A DNA stretch of 64,000 bases, taken from NCBI GenBank assembly GCA_947073545.1, contig CAMTMP010000002.1, forward strand, positions 62,001 to 126,000, in the 5' to 3' direction. Shown here piece after piece: positions 5,645 to 62,007 of this stretch (the stretch's first letter is position 1; the number at the start of each line of letters is the position of its first letter). The stretch is from an uncultured bacterium. Its GTDB lineage: Bacteria > Bacillota > Clostridia > Lachnospirales > Lachnospiraceae. The notes beneath the pieces were generated by a model. It was not told the origin of the DNA and ran no database searches. It saw nothing but the letters and a program-made list of their open reading frames with translations. The translations under genes and the position numbers were made by a program.

Positions 5645-5741
5645 CGCGAAAAGTACTTCTAAAGCTCAGCAGCAAAGGCTGCTTCGCCAAGAAGTACTAA
5701 GTTTCGCGTAGGAGAATGCCCCGAGTGCGGGCATTCTCCGC
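5645..5741 (+). repeat. Nested inverted-repeat element, copy 1
   Basis: Outer arms CGCGAAA (5645-5651) and TTTCGCG (5702-5708) enclose AGTACTTCT (5652-5660) paired with AGAAGTACT (5690-5698), which encloses an inner hairpin GCAGC-AAAG-GCTGC (5669-5682). A second hairpin follows, GGAGAATGCC (5711-5720) with GGCATTCTCC (5730-5739). A second copy with the same invariant blocks lies at 9003-9117. It sits between rnfB and the kinase gene and lacks a U-run, so it is not an ordinary terminator. Confidence 0.85.
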
Positions 5742-5771: not shown

Positions 5772-7079
5772 ATGGAAGGACAGTTGAAGAGCGGAACGGT
5801 TCTCACTTCCGAGAGCGGAAGCCGGTATACGGTGAAACAACTGCTTGGGGCCGGCGGGCAGGGGGAAGTGTATTCGGTGGAGTCCGAAAATAAGCTGCAT
5901 GCTTTGAAATGGTATTATAAAAATACCGCCACCAAAACCCAGAAGGATATTCTGGATAATCTCATTCAGAGCGGTCCGCCGGATGCGTCTTTCCTGTGGC
6001 CGCAGGATATGATTTTCAGGGCATACGGGGAATCCTTCGGATATGTTATGCCGCTTCGACCGAAGAATTACAGAAGCATTGTGGATATGATGAAAAGAAA
6101 GGCGGAGCCTTCCTTTTACTGTCTGTGCAGGGCCGCTTACCACCTGACCAGAGGATACCGCGCGCTGCACGCAAAGGGTTACAGCTATCGCGATATTTCC
6201 TTCGGCAATGTCTTTTTTGATCCCGACACGGGTGATGTGCTGATCTGCGATAACGATAACGTTTCTTATAACGGGGCGAAAACCGGTGTGTACGGCACGC
6301 CCCGGTTTATGGCGCCTGAGATTGTGACGGGAAAAGAGAAGCCTTCACGGAACACGGATCTCTTTTCCCTCGCGGTGCTGCTCTTTTACATGTTTATGTT
6401 AAACCACCCTTTAGAGGGCAGGAGAGAGGCACGGATCAAATGCATGGATATTCATGCCATGAATATGCTGTACGGGACTGATCCGCTGTTTATCTTTGAC
6501 CCGGACAACAAGGAAAACAGACCGCTTGCCGGGTATCAGGACAATGCCCTGATTTTTTGGAATCTGTATCCGCAGCAGCTTCGGGATCTGTTTACCACAT
6601 CATTCACCGTGGGCCTTGGACAGCCTAACCGACGGATTACCGAGGGGAAATGGATGGAGGTCTTTGCAAACCTCATGTCCGGCATTATGCTCTGTCAAAA
6701 CTGCGGCTGCGAGGTCTTTTATGATGCGCAGAAGGAAGAAAACGGTGTCGCGCATACGTGCTGGGGCTGTCAGAAGGCAGTGGCCGTTCCGCCTAAAATT
6801 GTGATCGGCAAAAGCGCCGTACTGCTGATGTCCAACACAAAATTGTATAAACACCATATCGAGGGAAATTATGATATGGAGACGAAGGTGGGTGAGGTGG
6901 TGCCAAATCCCAACAACCCGAAACTGTGGGGGATAAAAAATTTGTCCGGAGATAACTGGACATACATCAAGGCGGACGGCACGCAAGTTCTTGTACCGCA
7001 GGGACGTTCGGCGGCGATTGTCAGGGATTCGAAAATCGACTTCGGACAATTGACGGGAGAATTTCATGGAGGAGCATGA
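5772..7079 (+). CDS. Divergent Ser/Thr protein kinase with C-terminal zinc ribbon (YegI/TerY-P type)
   Basis: A 435-residue protein with a Hanks-type kinase fold. The glycine loop LLGAGGQGEV spans about residues 24-33 and the ATP-binding Lys is in ALKWYY near 46. The catalytic loop reads YRDISFGN (D141, N146) and the metal site is D160-N-D162 instead of DFG. A zinc-ribbon-like CQNCGC...CWGC follows at about residues 308-338, then a C-terminal region of about 95 residues I cannot assign. There is no membrane segment. The ATG at 5772 has AGGGAG upstream; the ATG at 5742 abuts a hairpin and has none. Its stop overlaps the next gene. The neighbouring VWA and PP2C genes match YegI/YegL/YegK and TerY-P triads. 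Confidence 0.88.
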   Translation: MEGQLKSGTVLTSESGSRYTVKQLLGAGGQGEVYSVESENKLHALKWYYKNTATKTQKDILDNLIQSGPPDASFLWPQDMIFRAYGESFGYVMPLRPKNYRSIVDMMKRKAEPSFYCLCRAAYHLTRGYRALHAKGYSYRDISFGNVFFDPDTGDVLICDNDNVSYNGAKTGVYGTPRFMAPEIVTGKEKPSRNTDLFSLAVLLFYMFMLNHPLEGRREARIKCMDIHAMNMLYGTDPLFIFDPDNKENRPLAGYQDNALIFWNLYPQQLRDLFTTSFTVGLGQPNRRITEGKWMEVFANLMSGIMLCQNCGCEVFYDAQKEENGVAHTCWGCQKAVAVPPKIVIGKSAVLLMSNTKLYKHHIEGNYDMETKVGEVVPNPNNPKLWGIKNLSGDNWTYIKADGTQVLVPQGRSAAIVRDSKIDFGQLTGEFHGGA

Positions 7080-8269
7080 CGACGGGTATGGAAGACGATA
7101 AGGTTTTGGCGGGCTTGGTGCAGGATTATCCCGACGCACTTTCCGACAGAAAAAGGCTGCAGGCGCTTCTTATGGATTTGTTTCCGCAGGACAGGCGAAA
7201 AAGGAACCTATTGCTGATTGCATATGACGACGGCATTGTGGGTGAACTTCGAGGCCTTGCGCAGATAGACAAAATGACGCTGCACCGGTTTGTCCGATCC
7301 GTTGAGCTGGGGTATGATATCAGGACGAAAAGCGCTGAGGCCGCTGTTATGGCTTGGGTAAGGGCGTTTGGGCTGTCCATGGAAGAGAAAGAGGAACAAA
7401 AGGAGGAAACCGATCGATCTGTCGGCGGACAGGAATCGTTTCCGTTCGTGAAAAAAGAGTGGGAGCCATGTGAGAGCGACAGTCTGTATGAATATGAGGA
7501 AACCGCAAGAGGGCTTCGGATTCTGAAATATGCTGATTTCGATGAGCCTGTTGTGGTGATTCCCAATATCATAGAAGGGAAAAAGGTAATCGCGGTCGGC
7601 AATTATGCCTTTAAGGGCTGTGTCGGCATCCAGAAGGTCATTGTTTCCGAGGGAATTGAGATTCTGGGAAACGGCGTATTTTTAAACTGCCGGGGCTTAC
7701 AGGAAGTATCTCTTCCCACATCGCTGCGGGGGATTGGCAGCACGGATACAACAGGCTGTCCCAAGATTTTAGGCAGCGAAATCAAATATGAAGGCGCTTT
7801 TGAGTACAGCGGGCTTAAGTCCGTTACAGTGCCGGACAGTGTAAAATATATCGGAGAAAACAGCTTTGCCGGTTGTGGCCAATTGAAACGAGCGGTGCTG
7901 CCGGACAAGCTGAGGGAAATAAAAAAGAATACATTCCGCTGGTGTAAAAGCCTGTGGGAAGTGACATTTCCGAGGGAGCTGAACGCAGTCCGGATATCAG
8001 CTTTTGAGGGCTGCAGCGTCTTGCGGACAGTGGATCTCCCGGAAGGGGTGGAAAGTATTGAAGAGGGCGCTTTTGCAGGCTGCAAAGGGCTGGAAAGCAT
8101 TTATATACCGGATTCCGTTACAGAAATCGGCGGCGGAAAGGGGACGGGCTTTTTAAAGACATTCGGGGAACCGGAGGAGCGGCATGAGAATTTTACGATT
8201 CGCTGTCACAGCGGGTCTTATGCGATGAAGTATGCCAGAACATGGCAGATCAGATGCGAGCGCGCGTAA
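7076..8269 (+). CDS. BspA-type leucine-rich-repeat protein with unknown N-terminal domain
   Basis: A 397-residue protein without signal peptide or membrane segment. Residues from about 140 on contain LRR_5/BspA-type repeats recognisable as AFxGCxxLxxVxLPxxVxxIxxxAF (for example NYAFKGCVGIQKVIV, FAGCGQLKRAVLP, FEGCSVLRTVDLP, FAGCKGLESIYIP). The first 105 residues form a charged, probably helical domain I do not recognise, followed by a Glu/Lys-rich linker. The start overlaps the kinase stop by four bases; an in-frame ATG at 7088 is an alternative. Being cytosolic and embedded in a kinase/VWA/PP2C operon, it may be a scaffold or substrate of the signalling module, which is inference. Confidence 0.85.
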   Translation: MTTGMEDDKVLAGLVQDYPDALSDRKRLQALLMDLFPQDRRKRNLLLIAYDDGIVGELRGLAQIDKMTLHRFVRSVELGYDIRTKSAEAAVMAWVRAFGLSMEEKEEQKEETDRSVGGQESFPFVKKEWEPCESDSLYEYEETARGLRILKYADFDEPVVVIPNIIEGKKVIAVGNYAFKGCVGIQKVIVSEGIEILGNGVFLNCRGLQEVSLPTSLRGIGSTDTTGCPKILGSEIKYEGAFEYSGLKSVTVPDSVKYIGENSFAGCGQLKRAVLPDKLREIKKNTFRWCKSLWEVTFPRELNAVRISAFEGCSVLRTVDLPEGVESIEEGAFAGCKGLESIYIPDSVTEIGGGKGTGFLKTFGEPEERHENFTIRCHSGSYAMKYARTWQIRCERA

Positions 8270-8286
8270 ATTAAGGAGGAGCGATT

Positions 8287-9000
8287 ATGGGAGAAATGAA
8301 AAGACCGGGAGGAGAGCTGGCGAGCAGGCCGCTGCATTTTTTTTGGATTGTGGACTGTTCCGGCTCCATGTACGGGGAGAAGATCGGCACGGTGAATCAT
8401 GCCATCCAGTCCACCATACCGGAGATGGTATCTGCCGCGGAAAATAATCCGAACGCGCAGTTGATGATCCGGACTCTGAAATTTTCTACCGGGGCTTCTT
8501 GGGTGACAAGCAATCCTGTCAAAGTGGAAGATTTTGCGTGGGACGATTTGGAGGCCGGAGGCGTGACGGATTTAGGAAAGGCATTTGAACTTCTGGCAGC
8601 GCAGCTTACGATTCCGCCAATGTCAGACAGGGCGCTTCCGCCCGTACTTGTTCTTTTGTCCGACGGACAGCCTACAGACGACTATAAAAAGGCGCTTTCG
8701 GAGTTAAAGAAACTGCCTTGGGGAAAGAAGGCGGTCAAGATCGCCATTTCCATCGGACAGGATGCGGACGACGCCGTTTTGGAAGAATTTGCGGGAAATA
8801 AGGAACTGGTGCTGCAGGCAAACAATGCGGCTGCGCTCACCAAAATGATTAAATGGGCGTCCACAGCCGCGTCACTGGTTTCCGCGCCTGCAAGCATTGC
8901 TGCGGATGCAGCGGGACAGGACGGGGACGCGCCGGTTATTGTGGACATGGGTGGCAGGCTGCCTGATCTGGATGATATTCAGGAAGGGGATGTCTGGTAG
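8287..9000 (+). CDS. VWA-domain protein, TerY/YegL-like
   Basis: A 237-residue soluble protein made almost entirely of one von Willebrand A domain. The metal-ion-dependent adhesion site is complete: DCSGS at residues 23-27, a TDLGK motif near residue 97 and a LSDGQPTDD motif near 125. AAGGAGG lies nine bases before the ATG. TerY/YegL proteins share this fold and partner a kinase and a PP2C phosphatase. The C-terminal zinc ribbon often fused to TerY is absent here, but a similar domain is encoded separately at 10088-10435. Confidence 0.9.
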   Translation: MGEMKRPGGELASRPLHFFWIVDCSGSMYGEKIGTVNHAIQSTIPEMVSAAENNPNAQLMIRTLKFSTGASWVTSNPVKVEDFAWDDLEAGGVTDLGKAFELLAAQLTIPPMSDRALPPVLVLLSDGQPTDDYKKALSELKKLPWGKKAVKIAISIGQDADDAVLEEFAGNKELVLQANNAAALTKMIKWASTAASLVSAPASIAADAAGQDGDAPVIVDMGGRLPDLDDIQEGDVW

Positions 9001-9002
9001 CA

Positions 9003-9117
9003 GTGTGAGAAGTACTTCTAAAGACGTCTCGCCATAGGACGAGACGCCAAGAAGTACTATGTCTGCTGCGCAGACTTTTCTCATACGGGAGAAGGCCTGA
9101 AAAGCGGCATTCTCCGC
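9003..9117 (+). repeat. Nested inverted-repeat element, copy 2
   Basis: Outer arms GTGTGAGA (9003-9010) and TCTCATAC (9079-9086) enclose two stems: AGTACTTCT (9011-9019) with AGAAGTACT (9050-9058), itself enclosing CGTCTCG/CGAGACG (9025-9046), and GTCTG/CAGAC (9061-9075). It is followed by a GGAGAA...TTCTCC hairpin ending in GGCATTCTCCGC (9106-9117). The blocks AGTACTTCTAAAG and CGCCAAGAAGTACTA and the final 12-mer are identical to copy 1 at 5645-5741, while paired inner and outer arms differ but still pair. Confidence 0.85.
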
Positions 9118-9156
9118 GCTGACCGGGATTTGTACTTGATGGAAAGGGTGCGGCAT

Positions 9157-10011
9157 ATGATACGAAGCGTATTCGGCGCGTCCGTACAGGGCGCATCCCA
9201 TATACGAAACGGCAGGGAATGCCAAGACAGCCTGAAAAAGGTGGTAAAAGATTCCGGCGCGGTGATTCTTTCGGTGGCGGACGGACACGGCAGTGAATCC
9301 TGCCCTTATAGCAAGGCAGGTTCCTATGCGGCTGTTAATGTATTTTGTAAAATCATGGGAGATTATCTGGACACCTATGCCGGACAGCCGGAAATGCTCT
9401 TTACTTTTTTGAAGCGGGAGGGCGATACCAAGATCGCGCAGGAGATTGACGCAGAGTGGAAACGGAGAATCCTGCGGCTTCACGCCAGATGTAAGCGGAA
9501 AATGCCTCTCGACGAAAACCGGAACAAGGACAAGGGAGCGGTTTATAAGCTCTATGGGAGCACGCTGCTTGGACTTGTCATGACGGGGGATTTTCTCTTT
9601 GCTTTCCAGCTCGGTGACGGGGATATCGTGAAGGTGTCGGAAAACGGGGTGTACCCTGTTATAGAGGCGGATAAAATTCTCGGAACGGAAACCCACTCGC
9701 TCGGCAAGCAGGAATCGTGGAAGAAAGCCATCACACGGATTAGGAGACGGGAAGAAAACGAACAATTGCCCGCTATGTACATGCTTTCCTCGGACGGGCT
9801 TTCCAACAGTTATAAAAATGATGAGGAATTTCAGAAGACTTGTATGGATTACTATGCTCTTCTGAAAGAGCACGGTGTGAAAGCCGTGTCTGACCAGTTG
9901 AAAACATGGCTGCAGGAGACGAGCGAAATGGGAAGCGGCGACGATATCACGGCGTTGTTTGCCTATGAGACGTCGCAGGTCTTGCAGTCCGGGGCTTCTG
10001 ACGGGTCCTGA
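9157..10011 (+). CDS. PP2C-type protein phosphatase (YegK/PphC-like)
   Basis: A 284-residue soluble PP2C-family protein expected to remove phosphate from Ser/Thr. Metal-binding motifs are visible: VADGHGSE near residue 44, a QLGDGDIV motif near 153, SSDGLSN near 212 and GDDIT near 262. The ATG at 9157 has AAAGGG eight bases upstream and starts just before the conserved GASVQGASH region; the TTG at 9130 and ATG at 9139 are less well placed. It follows the VWA gene and the second repeat element and probably opposes the kinase at 5772. Confidence 0.88.
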   Translation: MIRSVFGASVQGASHIRNGRECQDSLKKVVKDSGAVILSVADGHGSESCPYSKAGSYAAVNVFCKIMGDYLDTYAGQPEMLFTFLKREGDTKIAQEIDAEWKRRILRLHARCKRKMPLDENRNKDKGAVYKLYGSTLLGLVMTGDFLFAFQLGDGDIVKVSENGVYPVIEADKILGTETHSLGKQESWKKAITRIRRREENEQLPAMYMLSSDGLSNSYKNDEEFQKTCMDYYALLKEHGVKAVSDQLKTWLQETSEMGSGDDITALFAYETSQVLQSGASDGS

Positions 10012-10087
10012 CTGACGGGAGAGGAAATGATGCAGGCATCCCGGTTTGGATGCTTTAAGACTTGGGAAAGGAGCGGAGGCTGTAGAG

Positions 10088-10435
10088 ATGGAAGCGCGAA
10101 TTGCCCTTTGTAAATGTAGAGAAGGAAAAAACATATACGGCGTTCGTTTCGAGAAACTGGAGCACGGATGGAAGTATACATGGGCGTTTCCCGTAAAGGA
10201 GGCGTCTGCGAAAAGGGAGCATTACGATGAGACAAAGATTGTCGGGCAGATATTTCCCGACAACGGGTATCCCGGCTGTCCCTATTGCAGGACGAAGGAT
10301 TTCGTGGTCTGTAACTGTGGGAAACTGAACTGCCATAACGGGAATGACACCCATTTTACCTGTAACTGGTGCGGGCTGTCCGGGACGCTTGGCAGCTATG
10401 ATGGGTCCGGGTTTGGGTCCGGCGGGGATATTTAA
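10088..10435 (+). CDS. TerY-C-like zinc-ribbon protein
   Basis: A 115-residue protein. The first 60 residues look like a small beta-rich domain (CKCREGKNIYGVRFEKL and a WAFPVKEA segment). The second half has a double zinc-ribbon pattern GCPYC...CNCGKLNC...CNWCG typical of the TerY-C domain usually fused to TerY VWA proteins. The ATG at 10088 follows GGAG at 10075-10078. The C-terminus ends in a Gly/Ser-rich tail. It lies 76 bases after the PP2C gene. The split of this domain from its usual VWA partner suggests it docks onto the 8287-9000 protein, which is inference. Confidence 0.75.
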   Translation: MEARIALCKCREGKNIYGVRFEKLEHGWKYTWAFPVKEASAKREHYDETKIVGQIFPDNGYPGCPYCRTKDFVVCNCGKLNCHNGNDTHFTCNWCGLSGTLGSYDGSGFGSGGDI

Positions 10436-10488: not shown

Positions 10489-10710
10489 ATGGTAGGAAAA
10501 TATAAAGTAGTTACATTATGTGGAAGCACAAGGTTTAAAGAAGAATTTTTAGAGTAGCAGAAATTATCAACTTTACAGGGATACATCGTCATGTCTGTTG
10601 GATTATTCGGTCATTCAGGGGACGAAGAAGTCTGGGCAGAAGGCATAAAAGAAATGCCAATTACTTATATGGAAATGTCCAATGGGATGATACTACATAA
10701 AACAAATTAA
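10489..10710 (+). pseudogene. Decayed DUF4406/deoxyribosyltransferase-like gene
   Basis: The frame from the ATG at 10489 reads YKVVTLCGSTRFKEEF, then an in-frame TAG at 10555-10557, then QKLSTLQGYIVMSVGLFGHSGDEEVWAEGIKEM before the similarity ends and a TAA follows at 10708. CGSTRF and SVGLFGHSGD are the characteristic segments of a family of nucleoside 2-deoxyribosyltransferase-like (DUF4406-type) proteins about 100-120 residues long. The premature stop and the missing C-terminal half (with its MAD...VIN region) mark it as a relic. The stop may be an isolated substitution. Confidence 0.7.
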
Positions 10711-58467: not shown

Positions 58468-59568
58468 TCAATGGGTATGTATTTTGTAGCCGTGCTCTGT
58501 CATAATTTCCATGGCACGGGAAAGCGTGTCCTGACTGTAAAACTCGATACGCAGCGTCCCTTCTGCCAGTTCCCTGTTGTGGTTGATGCCGATATTCTTG
58601 ATGCTCACGTCGTGCATTGCCAGAAGGGAGGCGATGGCAGCAATGGCGCCAGGTTTGTCGGCGATGTCCACGGTAAACACATACTCCGCCTTGATGGGAC
58701 CGCTTGGCGCGCTGATAAAGGATTCCCTGTAATTTCTTGCCGTATCAAAGAAACGGTAAAGGGTGTCTTTTTTATGTTTGTCTATATCATCTGCAATTGT
58801 CCTGAGGTACTGAATGTACGCCCGAAGCAGCTTGGAAATATTATCCGCGTTGGTCAGGCAGATCTGCTGCCACATTTCCGGGGAGGAGGAGGCGATTCTT
58901 GTAATATCCTTGAAACCGCCTGCGGCGATCATTTTCATCACCCCGTCCTCGGAGTCGCTGCTTTTCACCAGATTGACCAAAGAGGCGGCGATCACGTGAG
59001 GCAGATGGGAGATGGCGGCAGTCACATAGTCGTGTTCCCCGTAAGATAAAATAAGCGGAATCGCGCCTATGCTCTCCACAAGCGCACGGTATGTCTCCAC
59101 CTTTTCGGCAGGGGCTTCGGCGGAAGGCGTCAGAATGTAGTAGGCGTTTTCCAGAAGGGATGCATTGGCATTCTGGTAGCCGAAACGCTCGGAACCCGCC
59201 ATGGGGTGACCGCCGATAAACTGCTTTTGTAGTTGCAGTTCTTCAATCTGCTTATGAATGCCGGTCTTGACACTCCCCACGTCCGTCAGAATGGTGTCGG
59301 GGGAGAGGTGGGGTTTCAGTGCCAGCAGATTTTCCGCATTGCGGGAAACCGGCGCGCACAAAAAGATATAGTCGCAGTTTTCGAAGGAATCGTCAACGGC
59401 AGGACAGATTTGGTCGATCACCTGTTCCTTGACCGCGAGATTAAGAGACTCTGTATGGATATCGTAGGCGATAAGGCGGGCGTCCGGCAGATGGTGCCTG
59501 ATTGCTTTGGCGATGGAGCCGCCGATCAGCCCGAGCCCGATAAAACCGCAGGTGAGTGTGTTTATCAT
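58468..59568 (-). CDS. tyrA: Prephenate dehydrogenase with ACT domain
   Basis: A 366-residue enzyme of tyrosine synthesis. GFIGLGLIGGSIAKAIR at the N-terminus is the dinucleotide-binding motif, VGSVKTGIHKQIEEL and GGHPMAGSERFG (catalytic His) mark the prephenate dehydrogenase family. Residues from about 290 form an ACT domain (VFTVDIADKPGAIAAIASLL), suggesting feedback control by an aromatic amino acid. GAGGT precedes the ATG at 59568. It is followed by aroA. Confidence 0.95.
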   Translation of the reverse strand: MINTLTCGFIGLGLIGGSIAKAIRHHLPDARLIAYDIHTESLNLAVKEQVIDQICPAVDDSFENCDYIFLCAPVSRNAENLLALKPHLSPDTILTDVGSVKTGIHKQIEELQLQKQFIGGHPMAGSERFGYQNANASLLENAYYILTPSAEAPAEKVETYRALVESIGAIPLILSYGEHDYVTAAISHLPHVIAASLVNLVKSSDSEDGVMKMIAAGGFKDITRIASSSPEMWQQICLTNADNISKLLRAYIQYLRTIADDIDKHKKDTLYRFFDTARNYRESFISAPSGPIKAEYVFTVDIADKPGAIAAIASLLAMHDVSIKNIGINHNRELAEGTLRIEFYSQDTLSRAMEIMTEHGYKIHTH

Positions 59569-59625
59569 GTCAGTACCTCGTAAGTTTATTTTTCGTTTTT
59601 AAGATATCACAAAACGGGAGGGAAA

Positions 59626-60360
59626 TCAAACGGCATAATTTCTTTCACGGTATTTTCCTGGAGTGATGCCTGTAAATTTTCTAAAAGCATAGGTAAAAGC
59701 GCTTTGTGAAGAATATCCAAGCGACGCAGAGATTTCAAAATAACTCAGATTACTGTATTTTAACAGATTTTGCGCCGTATCCATTTTGGCGGCAGTGACA
59801 TAAGCTTTGATGGTTTGCCCGGTATCCTGCTTAAATAATTTGGACAGATAGGATACATTTAGATTTGTAAAATCAGCTAATCCTTTCGCAGATAAGTCTG
59901 CGTTTAGATCTTCATAAATATGATCGATACATTTTCTGACATGAATGGATATGATGTCGTCCTTTTTTATTTCGCCTATCCGTTTCGCAAAATCCAGACA
60001 CATATCCTCAAGCAAAAGCTGCAGATCATCACATGTGGAAGCAGCATCAGATTTTTGACTGTAGATATCTGCAATCATATAAGCTTCATCATGTCCCAGG
60101 CCGCTTCCCAAACCCGATTCTGCAAGGAGTGTTGCGATAATCACAAAATGATACTTCATATTGTGTAATTGATTTTCAGATAAAATTCTTCCTACGGCAG
60201 AAAGCTTTACCTCTCCAGAAGAAATAAAAGTGTTCAACTTTTCTGTATCGCCGCTCGTTATGGCTTCCAATATACCATCTTCCAAATAGTATGGTTTCTT
60301 TTGATATCCATGTACCTTTTGCAGATATAGCTGCCTGTTAAGTTCTATTCTTATTTTCAT
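59626..60360 (-). CDS. AraC-family transcriptional regulator
   Basis: A 244-residue regulator whose C-terminal 100 residues form the two AraC helix-turn-helix motifs (YLSKLFKQDTGQTIKAYVTAAKM and the following YFEISASLGYSSQSAFTYAFRKFTGITPGKYR). The N-terminal part is helical without the usual cupin signature, so the effector is unknown. It is divergent from the MATE gene and lies 57 bases upstream of tyrA on the same strand. Confidence 0.93.
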   Translation of the reverse strand: MKIRIELNRQLYLQKVHGYQKKPYYLEDGILEAITSGDTEKLNTFISSGEVKLSAVGRILSENQLHNMKYHFVIIATLLAESGLGSGLGHDEAYMIADIYSQKSDAASTCDDLQLLLEDMCLDFAKRIGEIKKDDIISIHVRKCIDHIYEDLNADLSAKGLADFTNLNVSYLSKLFKQDTGQTIKAYVTAAKMDTAQNLLKYSNLSYFEISASLGYSSQSAFTYAFRKFTGITPGKYRERNYAV

Positions 60361-60461
60361 AAGAGACTCCTTTATCTCATAATCATTGCTGCATTCCTAA
60401 AGCAGCATCATCTTAAGTATTTGTGATAATACCATAGTTTTGATAAAAAGGCGAGGGTTTC

Positions 60462-60478
60462 GATATAAATTTTATATC
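60462..60478. promoter_or_regulatory. Dyad in the araC/MATE divergent region
   Basis: GATATAAA-T-TTTATATC is a perfect 8-bp dyad around a single base, 46 bases before the MATE start codon. It may be the operator of the AraC-type regulator, or a fold in the leader. Confidence 0.4.
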
Positions 60479-60523
60479 AATGATGATAAAACGAAATAAA
60501 ATTGGTTTGAGGAAGGTGTCATC

Positions 60524-61855
60524 ATGGATCAAATAGATTTTACCAGAGGTTCCATAACAAAGTCATTCTGCAGGTTTTTCTTTCCAATGCTGTTGGCCAA
60601 TATATTACAACAGGTATATTCCTTTACGGACATGGTTATCATCGGGCAGGGCCTGGGAGACCGTTCCCTTGCCGCTGTCGGTAACTTTACAACTATTTCC
60701 TTTTTCTTAACAGGGTTTATTATGGGAATCACAAACGGCTTTTCTGTCAATATATCTCAAGCTTGTGGCGAAAAGGAGTCTGGTAAGCTGAAAAAAATAA
60801 TTGCATCTTCGCTAAAAATAACTGCTGTATTTGCGGTTCTTTTTTCGATGATAGGGTTGCTGCTTCTAAAACCAATGTTACAGATCATGCAGACAGACCA
60901 GGAACTTTTAAACGATTGTATGGCGTACGGCTGTATCATATTCGGCGGTTTGCCCATTCTGGCGGCATACCAGTTACTGTCCTCCGTTTTAAGGGGAGTT
61001 GGCGACAGTAAAACGCCCTTATTCGCAATCGGTGTTTCATCCGCATGCAACATAATATTAGATATATTGTTTCTTTATTTATTCCATTCCGGCATTTCTG
61101 GACCGGCTTATGCAACAGTCCTTTCACAATTACTCGCTGCAGGCATTTGTTATTTTCGATTACATAGGATGAAGGAACGAAAGATTACCAGAAGTGATTT
61201 CGTGTTCCATTTCAGATTGGATATGGAATTGTTGAAAAACGGCTTGCCAATGGCATTTATGCATGCAATGACTTCAGTCGGCTGCATATTTGTTCAAAGC
61301 TGTATTAACGGTTATGGTGTTGCTTATACATCGGCATATGCAGTCTGCAATAAATATCTGAATTTTTTTATGCTGCCGGGAATAACGATCGGCTTTACCA
61401 TATCTTCGTTTACAGGTCAGAATTTTGGCGGCAAGGAGTTTAAAAGAATTCGCGGCGGTACAAAAATGGCGTGCATAATGGCGGTTCTCTCAGCGCTGTT
61501 ACTTGGAATGGTACTGTTTTTCTTCTCCGATTTACTGGCAAAAATTATGCTTACCGGGCAGGAAGCGGCTGCCTGTGCTTCCATATATCTGAGATTTTTA
61601 GCATTATTTATGGTTCTTCTGAATGCATTGTTTGTTTTTCGAAGCTGTGTTCAGGGATTAGGGAAACCGGCTGTACCTATGTGTTCCGGCATCGTTGAAA
61701 TGCTGATTTGCATACCGGCTGTTTACTTCGGATTACCTGTATTTGGATTTGCGGCGGCCATATATGCTGAAGGCATAGCCTGGATAGGAGCATTGGCGCT
61801 CAATGGTATTTCATATATATGTTTTCTAAAAAAATACGAAAGGCATGGCTGCTGA
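60524..61855 (+). CDS. MATE family efflux transporter
   Basis: A 443-residue, twelve-helix cation-coupled exporter. MLLANILQQVYSFTDMVIIG near residue 20 and LRGVGDSKTPL near 155 are typical MATE segments, and the second half repeats the pattern (MYPGITIGF-like LPGITIGFTISSFTGQNFG). Substrate is unknown; multidrug or metabolite export is typical. GAGGAAGG precedes the ATG. The gene diverges from the AraC regulator, which probably controls it. Base composition is more AT-rich than in the housekeeping genes. Confidence 0.94.
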   Translation: MDQIDFTRGSITKSFCRFFFPMLLANILQQVYSFTDMVIIGQGLGDRSLAAVGNFTTISFFLTGFIMGITNGFSVNISQACGEKESGKLKKIIASSLKITAVFAVLFSMIGLLLLKPMLQIMQTDQELLNDCMAYGCIIFGGLPILAAYQLLSSVLRGVGDSKTPLFAIGVSSACNIILDILFLYLFHSGISGPAYATVLSQLLAAGICYFRLHRMKERKITRSDFVFHFRLDMELLKNGLPMAFMHAMTSVGCIFVQSCINGYGVAYTSAYAVCNKYLNFFMLPGITIGFTISSFTGQNFGGKEFKRIRGGTKMACIMAVLSALLLGMVLFFFSDLLAKIMLTGQEAAACASIYLRFLALFMVLLNALFVFRSCVQGLGKPAVPMCSGIVEMLICIPAVYFGLPVFGFAAAIYAEGIAWIGALALNGISYICFLKKYERHGC

Positions 61856-61899
61856 TAGAATCGTGTTTTCACAATCTGTGCAGAATGTATAAATAGTTG

Positions 61900-61928
61900 T
61901 TGAAATTGTTCTGAAAATTTAGTAAAAT
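61900..61928 (+). promoter_or_regulatory. Sigma-A promoter of the EF-G-like gene
   Basis: TTGAAA at 61900 and TAAAAT at 61923 with a 17-base spacer, giving a leader of about 75 bases. Confidence 0.7.
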
Positions 61929-62007
61929 GTATTTACAACTTAGCGCCATGATTTTGTTTGGCTTTGGGTGGTGAATAAAGAACAACAGAATTGGAGGGTT
62001 ACAAGGC

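Follow-up and report, generated by a model that had tools for sequence, protein, structure and literature searches.

Within the 64-kb window, by which we mean the whole stretch of DNA analysed (64,000 nucleotides from an uncultured Lachnospiraceae bacterium), five co-directional genes encode a Ser/Thr kinase, a protein with BspA-type leucine-rich repeats (LRRs), a VWA protein, a PP2C-type phosphatase and a stand-alone TerY-C zinc-binding protein (Table 1). We examined this five-gene cassette, its relatives in other bacteria, and a helical domain at the start of the LRR protein that we call ND. The genes at positions 5772 to 10435 are real and correctly placed, as a preliminary description of this DNA had them: all five Pfam-A matches (Pkinase, LRR_5/BspA, VWA, PP2C_2 and TerY_C) exceed the curated cut-offs and the active-site residues are conserved. 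The kinase and LRR genes, for which translational coupling had been proposed, overlap by 4 bp (ATGA). Better starts were assigned to the phosphatase (ATG 9157) and to the TerY-C protein (ATG 10088), with GGAGCGGAGG upstream of the latter. The TerY_C match (PF15616) is the sole one in the window's genome. By inspection of the sequence, an rnf operon lies upstream of the five genes and an aldo/keto reductase (AKR) gene downstream.

Table 1. Features of the five-gene cassette and its hairpin elements, in window positions.
Feature	Position	Strand	Evidence
KIN, Ser/Thr kinase, 435 aa: catalytic domain, zinc ribbon and FHA-like domain	5772..7079	+	PF00069, 6e-19
Four-cysteine zinc ribbon of kinase (C308, C311, C330, C333)	6693..6770	+	Cysteine conservation in alignment
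FHA-like beta-sandwich, C-terminus of kinase	6783..7076	+	Fold comparison of predicted model
ND, all-helical N-terminal domain of about 100 aa in the LRR protein	7076..7387	+	Profile; AlphaFold2 model; no Pfam family
BspA-type LRR region, same protein as ND (gene 7076-8269)	7526..8269	+	PF13306, 1.2e-40, two stretches, best at residues 239-352
VWA protein, MIDAS intact	8287..9000	+	PF00092, 4.8e-9
D-V-W-COOH tail of VWA protein	8989..8997	+	63/65 complete kinase-nearest VWA ORFs end in W
PP2C-type phosphatase	9157..10011	+	PF13672 (PP2C_2), 5.2e-36
Stand-alone TerY-C zinc-binding protein; ORF readable from TTG 10046	10088..10435	+	PF15616, 1.9e-9
Hairpin element copy, upstream of KIN	5651..5698	.	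REP-like; fold z -5.7; not thought essential
Hairpin element copy, gap between VWA and PP2C genes	9010..9058	.	Fold z -5.4

Residues 1-104 of the LRR protein form a separate conserved domain, previously unannotated, and this is ND. Its AlphaFold2 model is compact, with seven helices (predicted local distance difference test score 90, predicted template modelling score 0.81), and no Pfam family above noise was found for 45 ND sequences. An iterated ND profile labelled 93 open reading frames (ORFs) in the window region and 88 loci (numbered L008-L095), and BspA LRRs are present on 49/93 of them. ND-like parts occur in neighbour proteins of other kinase loci whose remaining domains differ. By Pfam, a selection of the ND partners comprised Sel1, Clp_N and FGE; further partners were DEAD helicase (L043, L073), DUF4261, ankyrin, UvrD, SNF2, YARHG, RCC1, WD40 and other LRRs, and an additional set held FGE, WD40, TPR, RCC1, HIRAN and DUF7225. 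A single ND protein of L012 and another of L008 had no real match, and two ND proteins of L116 gave none. Several ND proteins can lie at a single locus (five in L008, three in L116 and three in L070). The LRR protein had been put forward as an extra partner of the kinase; it does recur beside the kinase, but the more widely conserved partner is the ND domain ahead of the LRRs, which are one of many attachments. By these comparisons ND appears to be an effector-associated-adaptor-like domain that may carry varied sensor or effector parts. On a Methylomonas plasmid (L008:10894-15430), five ND proteins lie in a row, one bearing Clp_N and another, by inspection, a ClpX-like zinc-binding start, as if feeding targets to Clp proteases.

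The occurrence of ND was compared with that of the kinase in two genome samples. Among 150 genomes of the family, the kinase (E <= 1e-40) was found in 6 and ND (E <= 1e-5) in 5, all 5 within those 6, and all 6 ND places were less than 4 kb from a kinase. Among 299 genomes of the phylum, ND was found in exactly the 3 kinase-bearing genomes, and again all 5 ND places were less than 4 kb from the kinase. The co-occurrence was significant by Fisher's test in the family (1e-8, or 8e-6 without the window's own genus) and in the phylum (2e-7, or 2e-5 without its own genome). Within the samples searched, ND thus appears near this kinase only, with a fusion partner that varies. The kinase was present in 3/72,556 plasmid records (E <= 1e-20), and a search of plasmids with the L008 ND domain matched the query record alone. 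A phage source was rejected, since a search of 50,697 phage records yielded a single match, which was weak and kinase-like.

A scan of genome contigs returned at least 590 stretches, 571 of which encode relatives; the best 80 were used for all counts out of 80, and the distant majority lies outside them. Near the kinase of these 80 loci we found VWA in 67, PP2C in 65, ND in 64, ND-LRR in 41 and TerY-C in 28, together with a protein of about 170 aa in 22, a transglutaminase-like protein in 14 and BrxL in 12. The parts that travel together in these neighbourhoods are a cytosolic kinase with a ribbon and an FHA-like tail, a PP2C phosphatase and a MIDAS-bearing VWA protein, usually with an ND protein and often with a stand-alone TerY-C. 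The preliminary description had presented the split-off TerY-C domain as a new addition, which it is not: besides the 28/80 loci with a stand-alone TerY-C near the kinase, one is annotated on a Prevotella plasmid, and in L089 the domain is fused to PP2C. The LRR and TerY-C genes both recur beside the kinase in relatives and are not peculiar to the window.

The residues of the catalytic and metal-binding sites were followed through these relatives. In the kinase-labelled alignment K46 is kept in 91/93 sequences, D141 and N146 in 93/93 and D160 in 92/93. The zinc ribbon ascribed to the kinase was borne out by its four cysteines (C308 in 92/92, C311 in 93/93, C330 in 91/92 and C333 in 92/92). Likewise the metal ion-dependent adhesion site (MIDAS) of the VWA protein, described as intact, retains D23-S25-S27, T94 and D126 in 81/81 aligned sequences, from which we infer that control by the VWA protein may be metal dependent. 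D41, D153, D212 and D261 of the phosphatase and C64, C67, C75, C77, C82, C92 and C95 of the TerY-C protein are also conserved in aligned relatives.

Two C-termini stood out. The predicted model of the kinase tail after the zinc ribbon matches FHA domains in fold comparison, with the FHA beta-sandwich fold; by inspection, residues 337-435 read IGKS / LYKHH / NLSGDNW where the canonical FHA phosphothreonine-binding pattern has GR / S-H / NG. The terminal tryptophan of the VWA protein is near-invariant and usually part of D-V-W; the count in Table 1 leaves out L058 and L085, whose ORFs are cut by a contig end, and in the two ORFs without it (L081 and L087) the other VWA ORF had been picked, the second VWA ending ADVW or PDIW. 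This D-[VI]-W tail follows an acidic linker and is found in several phyla, and other endings were DVF (L115), EAW (L116), DDWG (Prevotella) and LSFD (Nostoc). The DVW tail and the FHA-like kinase tail provide concrete docking hypotheses.

The five genes had been called an island. They form instead a cassette between the housekeeping genes rnfB and AKR, and the site was empty in 8/8 kinase-negative genomes examined (of 35), where the AKR gene comes immediately after rnfB at a distance of 38-428 bp and none of the five cassette genes matched at the junction. At E <= 1e-40 the kinase is present in 42/77 members of the genus, counting the window's own genome, and in 23/39 of the more complete ones. 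All five genes are found in 18/20 rnf-site loci; of the other two, the contig of L036 ends inside the PP2C gene and only L034 is truly without TerY-C. The rnf-site count was lowered from 22 to 20 when L080 and L089 were dropped as chance cluster hits. In six further loci the cassette lies beside ftsY, with no TerY-C seen there. The genes therefore act as a single unit that occupies two or more sites.

All five genes are under purifying selection. The median dN/dS (the ratio of nonsynonymous to synonymous substitution rates, Nei-Gojobori) between the window and 18 rnf-site relatives was 0.047 for the kinase, 0.104 for ND-LRR, 0.032 for VWA, 0.080 for PP2C and 0.051 for TerY-C, rough values with a median dS of 1.0-1.6 and synonymous sites near saturation. 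Because these medians lie at 0.03-0.10, the five genes are more than a chance assembly. A role of the LRR part as a fast-evolving antigen sensor in the window's clade was rejected on its dN/dS of 0.08.

In a maximum-likelihood tree of 85 kinases, the rnf-site and ftsY-site kinases form one group (support 100/100, 29 rows), and closest to it is the kinase of L040, a restriction endonuclease (REase)-helicase locus (97/90). The brxL-linked kinases fall mostly in another group (97/97), with L041 apart. The tree is midpoint-rooted and has some long branches; the root is set by the very long branch of the L087 kinase, a wrong pick. By this placement the window's stand-alone form is therefore related to restriction-linked forms, and it was perhaps derived from them, as we infer for the direction.

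The relatives linked to bacteriophage exclusion (BREX) genes share a fixed gene order. In 14/14 cases the BrxL-cluster gene of a kinase locus has an ND-LRR gene immediately after it on the same strand, with a gap of -14 to 96 bp. The 12/80 count of BrxL uses a 7-kb limit, and the 14 cases add L012 and also L063, where the BrxL fragment and the ND-LRR gene are both more distant; L011 and L025 represent one contig and are not independent. BrxL was confirmed by Pfam for L012 and L062 and assigned by clustering in the others, and the BrxL ORFs of L054, L063 and L067 are cut by contig ends or incomplete. PglZ was confirmed by Pfam in L041, L062 and L070. A single-linkage pglZ cluster of 6 loci was not trusted, as Pfam finds no PglZ in the 784-aa ORF of L053. 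BrxC exceeded the cut-off in 10/11 searchable genomes of brxL-linked loci (L041 left out); in L053, L061, L062 and L070 it is found 15-17 kb upstream, on the same strand of what was checked to be the same contig. Since brxL is followed by ND-LRR in all 14 cases, a sister form of the system is built into BREX operons, and this fixed order would tie BREX to reversible phosphorylation. BREX-linked forms also encode a protein of about 170 aa between the ND-LRR gene and the kinase gene, as at L062:9492-10001; its cluster comprises 24 loci, and the protein gave no Pfam match and is PH/GRAM-like by eye.

Other neighbours of a restriction or defence kind are MTES_1575-type REase-helicases (helicase-nucleases) in L012 and L040 and a TIR protein in L115, where roughly 1.3 kb separates it from the ND gene. 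By inspection, a TerD-like ORF lies beside the kinase in L014, and no ter (tellurite) genes were noticed in the window segment.

The kinase, VWA protein and phosphatase are distant homologues of E. coli YegI, YegL and PphC (25%, 25% and 23% identity; pairwise BLAST 1e-10, 4e-6 and 2e-4; profile scores 74.4, 72.1 and 47.0 bits), and for this reason the reading of the triad as TerY-P-like holds. The narrower label of a YegIKL type is right as to the homologous triad but too close: the YegI match spans residues 5-216, the kinase domain alone, and YegL has no tryptophan at its C-terminus, ending KGWTSV where the VWA protein here ends DVW. Neither the ND nor the TerY-C profile matched YegI, YegL or PphC (YegK). 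The original description of the TerY-P triad is reportedly that of Anantharaman 2012. Its MIDAS-bearing VWA, same-operon PP2C and Ser/Thr kinase with a C-terminal zinc ribbon are all found here; the differences are the FHA-like domain after the ribbon, the stand-alone TerY-C, the separate ND protein and, in relatives, the brxL-ND-LRR order. In TerY_C-bearing TerY proteins, moreover, TerY-C is fused to the VWA domain, whereas here it is a separate ORF (10088-10435).

Much of the setting has precedents. In the passages of PMC11090510 considered here, the TerY-P triad is linked to restriction systems, BREX frequently shares superoperons with coiled-coil nuclease tandem (CoCoNuT) systems, many of which bear TerY-P, and SpoVK-like ATPases encoded between TerY-type VWA genes have LRR elements at their C-termini. 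The same passages contain no description of ND, report TerY-P modules in defence and cite the antiphage TerY-P of Gao 2020, whose kinase tail is given as an oligonucleotide/oligosaccharide-binding (OB) fold, whereas the KIN tail matches FHA and not the OB-fold. The CoCoNuT precedent, with its BREX superoperons and LRR-bearing ATPases, lowers the novelty of our observations. Effector-associated domains (EADs; Kaur 2020/2021) are small adaptor domains found on many sensor and effector domains in neighbouring genes, as described in passages of PMC7159879 and PMC8195603. ND resembles them by description in lying on several neighbouring proteins with different partners (L008, L116, L070), and differs in that the core here is a kinase/phosphatase switch, not a nucleoside triphosphatase, and that ND is absent from the core proteins. 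GAP1-N2 GTPase loci contain a kinase with a zinc ribbon and a beta-rich domain, PP2C and a stand-alone vWA; the architecture and partners are by description the same, and that passage of PMC7159879 mentions no ND partner. As in BREX type 1, brxL, pglZ and brxC lie upstream in the sister form, whereas the window's genome is without BrxL.

The triad and the swappable-adaptor principle (EADs) are therefore already known, as are the superoperons that BREX shares with CoCoNuTs and the ATPases with LRRs next to TerY-type VWA genes. The passages of the BREX survey PMC12839542 considered here make no mention of PP2C, TerY, LRR or transglutaminase, and those of PMC10907252 and PMC9674922 add no ND-like partner of TerY-P. 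In a literature search that lay outside Anantharaman 2012 and Gao 2020, which may show some of these features, we found no description of ND, the ND-kinase link, the brxL-ND-LRR order or the DVW tail.

Taken together, we consider it probable, with some reserve, that the cassette encodes a phosphorylation switch of the TerY-P-like kind which operates by way of interchangeable ND adaptors and probably serves phage defence, and that the window holds a stand-alone form with an LRR arm. We know of no input to bacterial kinase/PP2C/VWA modules that lie beside restriction systems. ND would dock a variable arm onto the kinase/PP2C/VWA switch. Repeat or FGE arms may sense a ligand or invader, the LRR being the presumed sensing arm here, and helicase and nuclease-linked arms may act as effectors; engagement of the arm would shift the kinase/PP2C balance. 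The VWA protein would be a metal-dependent adaptor, its DVW tail anchoring it to the kinase or PP2C, and would couple the state of the arm to their activity, and TerY-C and the kinase ribbon are predicted to be zinc-binding and may also bind nucleic acid. As its output the switch would phosphorylate host proteins, with growth arrest or a stress response as the outcome, most likely directed at phage. Two points make defence the most likely use: the neighbours include BREX, helicase-nuclease and TIR genes, and the passages of PMC11090510 cited above place TerY-P modules in defence. A kinase-linked adaptor with swappable sensor and effector arms, together with the fixed brxL-ND-LRR order, would offer a testable link between the sensing of an invader and phosphorylation. 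For such tests the window cassette, whose site is empty in sister species, provides a compact version of only five genes.

A broader form of this proposal, which we advance only tentatively, is that ND is a bacterial adaptor family making the switch modular as Death-like adaptors do for nucleotide-binding LRR (NLR) systems. Exchange of the arm (LRR, WD40, FGE or helicase) would retarget the switch, BREX would have absorbed it as a built-in control layer, and the window would hold a domesticated stand-alone form.

Several observations weigh against a defence switch built on ND. No ND was found within 7 kb of the kinase in 16/80 loci, some at contig ends and others (for example L065, L083 and L090) with a full neighbourhood, and 6/52 loci with at least 3 kb upstream and at least 3.5 kb downstream lack it. 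In genome G025 the kinase is accompanied by VWA and PP2C only. Because the ND profile was seeded from kinase neighbours, relatives of ND elsewhere may be missed. The LRR part, with a dN/dS of 0.08, is under purifying selection and not under the diversifying selection that an arms-race sensor might show. BrxL occurs in 18/150 family genomes (17 over the cut-off), only one of which (G130) carries the kinase; 5/6 kinase genomes of that sample are without BrxL, and no match to it was found in the window's own genome (G000). The window cassette sits outside any defence island and contains no effector gene. In PADLOC, the VWA, PP2C, LRR and TerY-C proteins were unmatched, and the kinase matched mad6 and PD-T4-6 over no more than parts of its kinase domain.

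A real rival to defence, in our view possible and yet unlikely, is a non-defence signalling cassette for stress or metal response (YegI/Ter-like), with the LRR protein as a scaffold and the BREX links as by-standers of operon shuffling. The stable chromosomal sites (rnfB-AKR, and ftsY in 6 loci), the strong purifying selection on all parts, the zinc-binding parts throughout, the TerD-like gene beside the kinase of L014 and the presence of BrxL in only 1/6 kinase genomes of the family sample are consistent with it. The patchy presence in the genus (42/77) and the two alternative sites resemble a defence-type module instead, as does the fixed brxL-ND-LRR order in divergent relatives. That the cassette is a toxin-antitoxin-like pair, in which the unleashed kinase is toxic, PP2C is the antidote and the other three proteins are regulators, is improbable: PP2C accompanies the kinase in 47/52 loci with flanks (65/80 overall) and the whole cassette is missing from its site in the 8/8 kinase-negative genomes examined, but the conservation of the kinase (dN/dS 0.05) is that of a signalling enzyme, and bacterial Hanks kinases usually have PP2C as their antagonist. 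Regulation of the Rnf complex is most improbable: the cassette does follow the rnf operon immediately, in the window as in the 20 rnf-site loci, but it occurs beside ftsY in 6 loci, and rnf operons stand without it at the 8/8 empty sites examined.

The spacing of the genes was measured in 19 rnf-site loci, the window included. Distances between called ORFs are mostly below 50 bp or are overlaps; larger gaps lie between VWA and PP2C (129 bp in the window, 132 bp in L049), between ND and VWA (120 bp in L017) and between PP2C and TerY-C (98 bp in L017, 111 bp in L020). A copy of a hairpin element occupies the VWA-PP2C gap in both the window and L049. In the window, the 156 bp from the VWA stop to the PP2C start at ATG 9157 hold this copy, and the gap before the kinase likewise holds one, so that two copies flank KIN-LRR-VWA. 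The element is 48-49 bp long (AAGTACTTCTAAAG...CCAAGAAGTACT), with 6 exact-pattern copies in the window's genome against 0 for a reversed-pattern control, and its inner stem shows paired changes among copies by inspection. It looks like a mobile element of the repetitive extragenic palindromic (REP) type or an RNA element.

In the gap between the TerY-C and AKR genes, inspection showed what resembles a broken small gene at 10490-10700, with a stop codon within a KVVTLCGSTRF-like start. A promoter scan gave 5 sites versus 4.7 in shuffles, which is no enrichment, and a tRNA search of the window found none. Terminator-like sites numbered 14 versus 4.7 in shuffles. The GC minimum of the window (0.39-0.43) lies at about 59000-62000.

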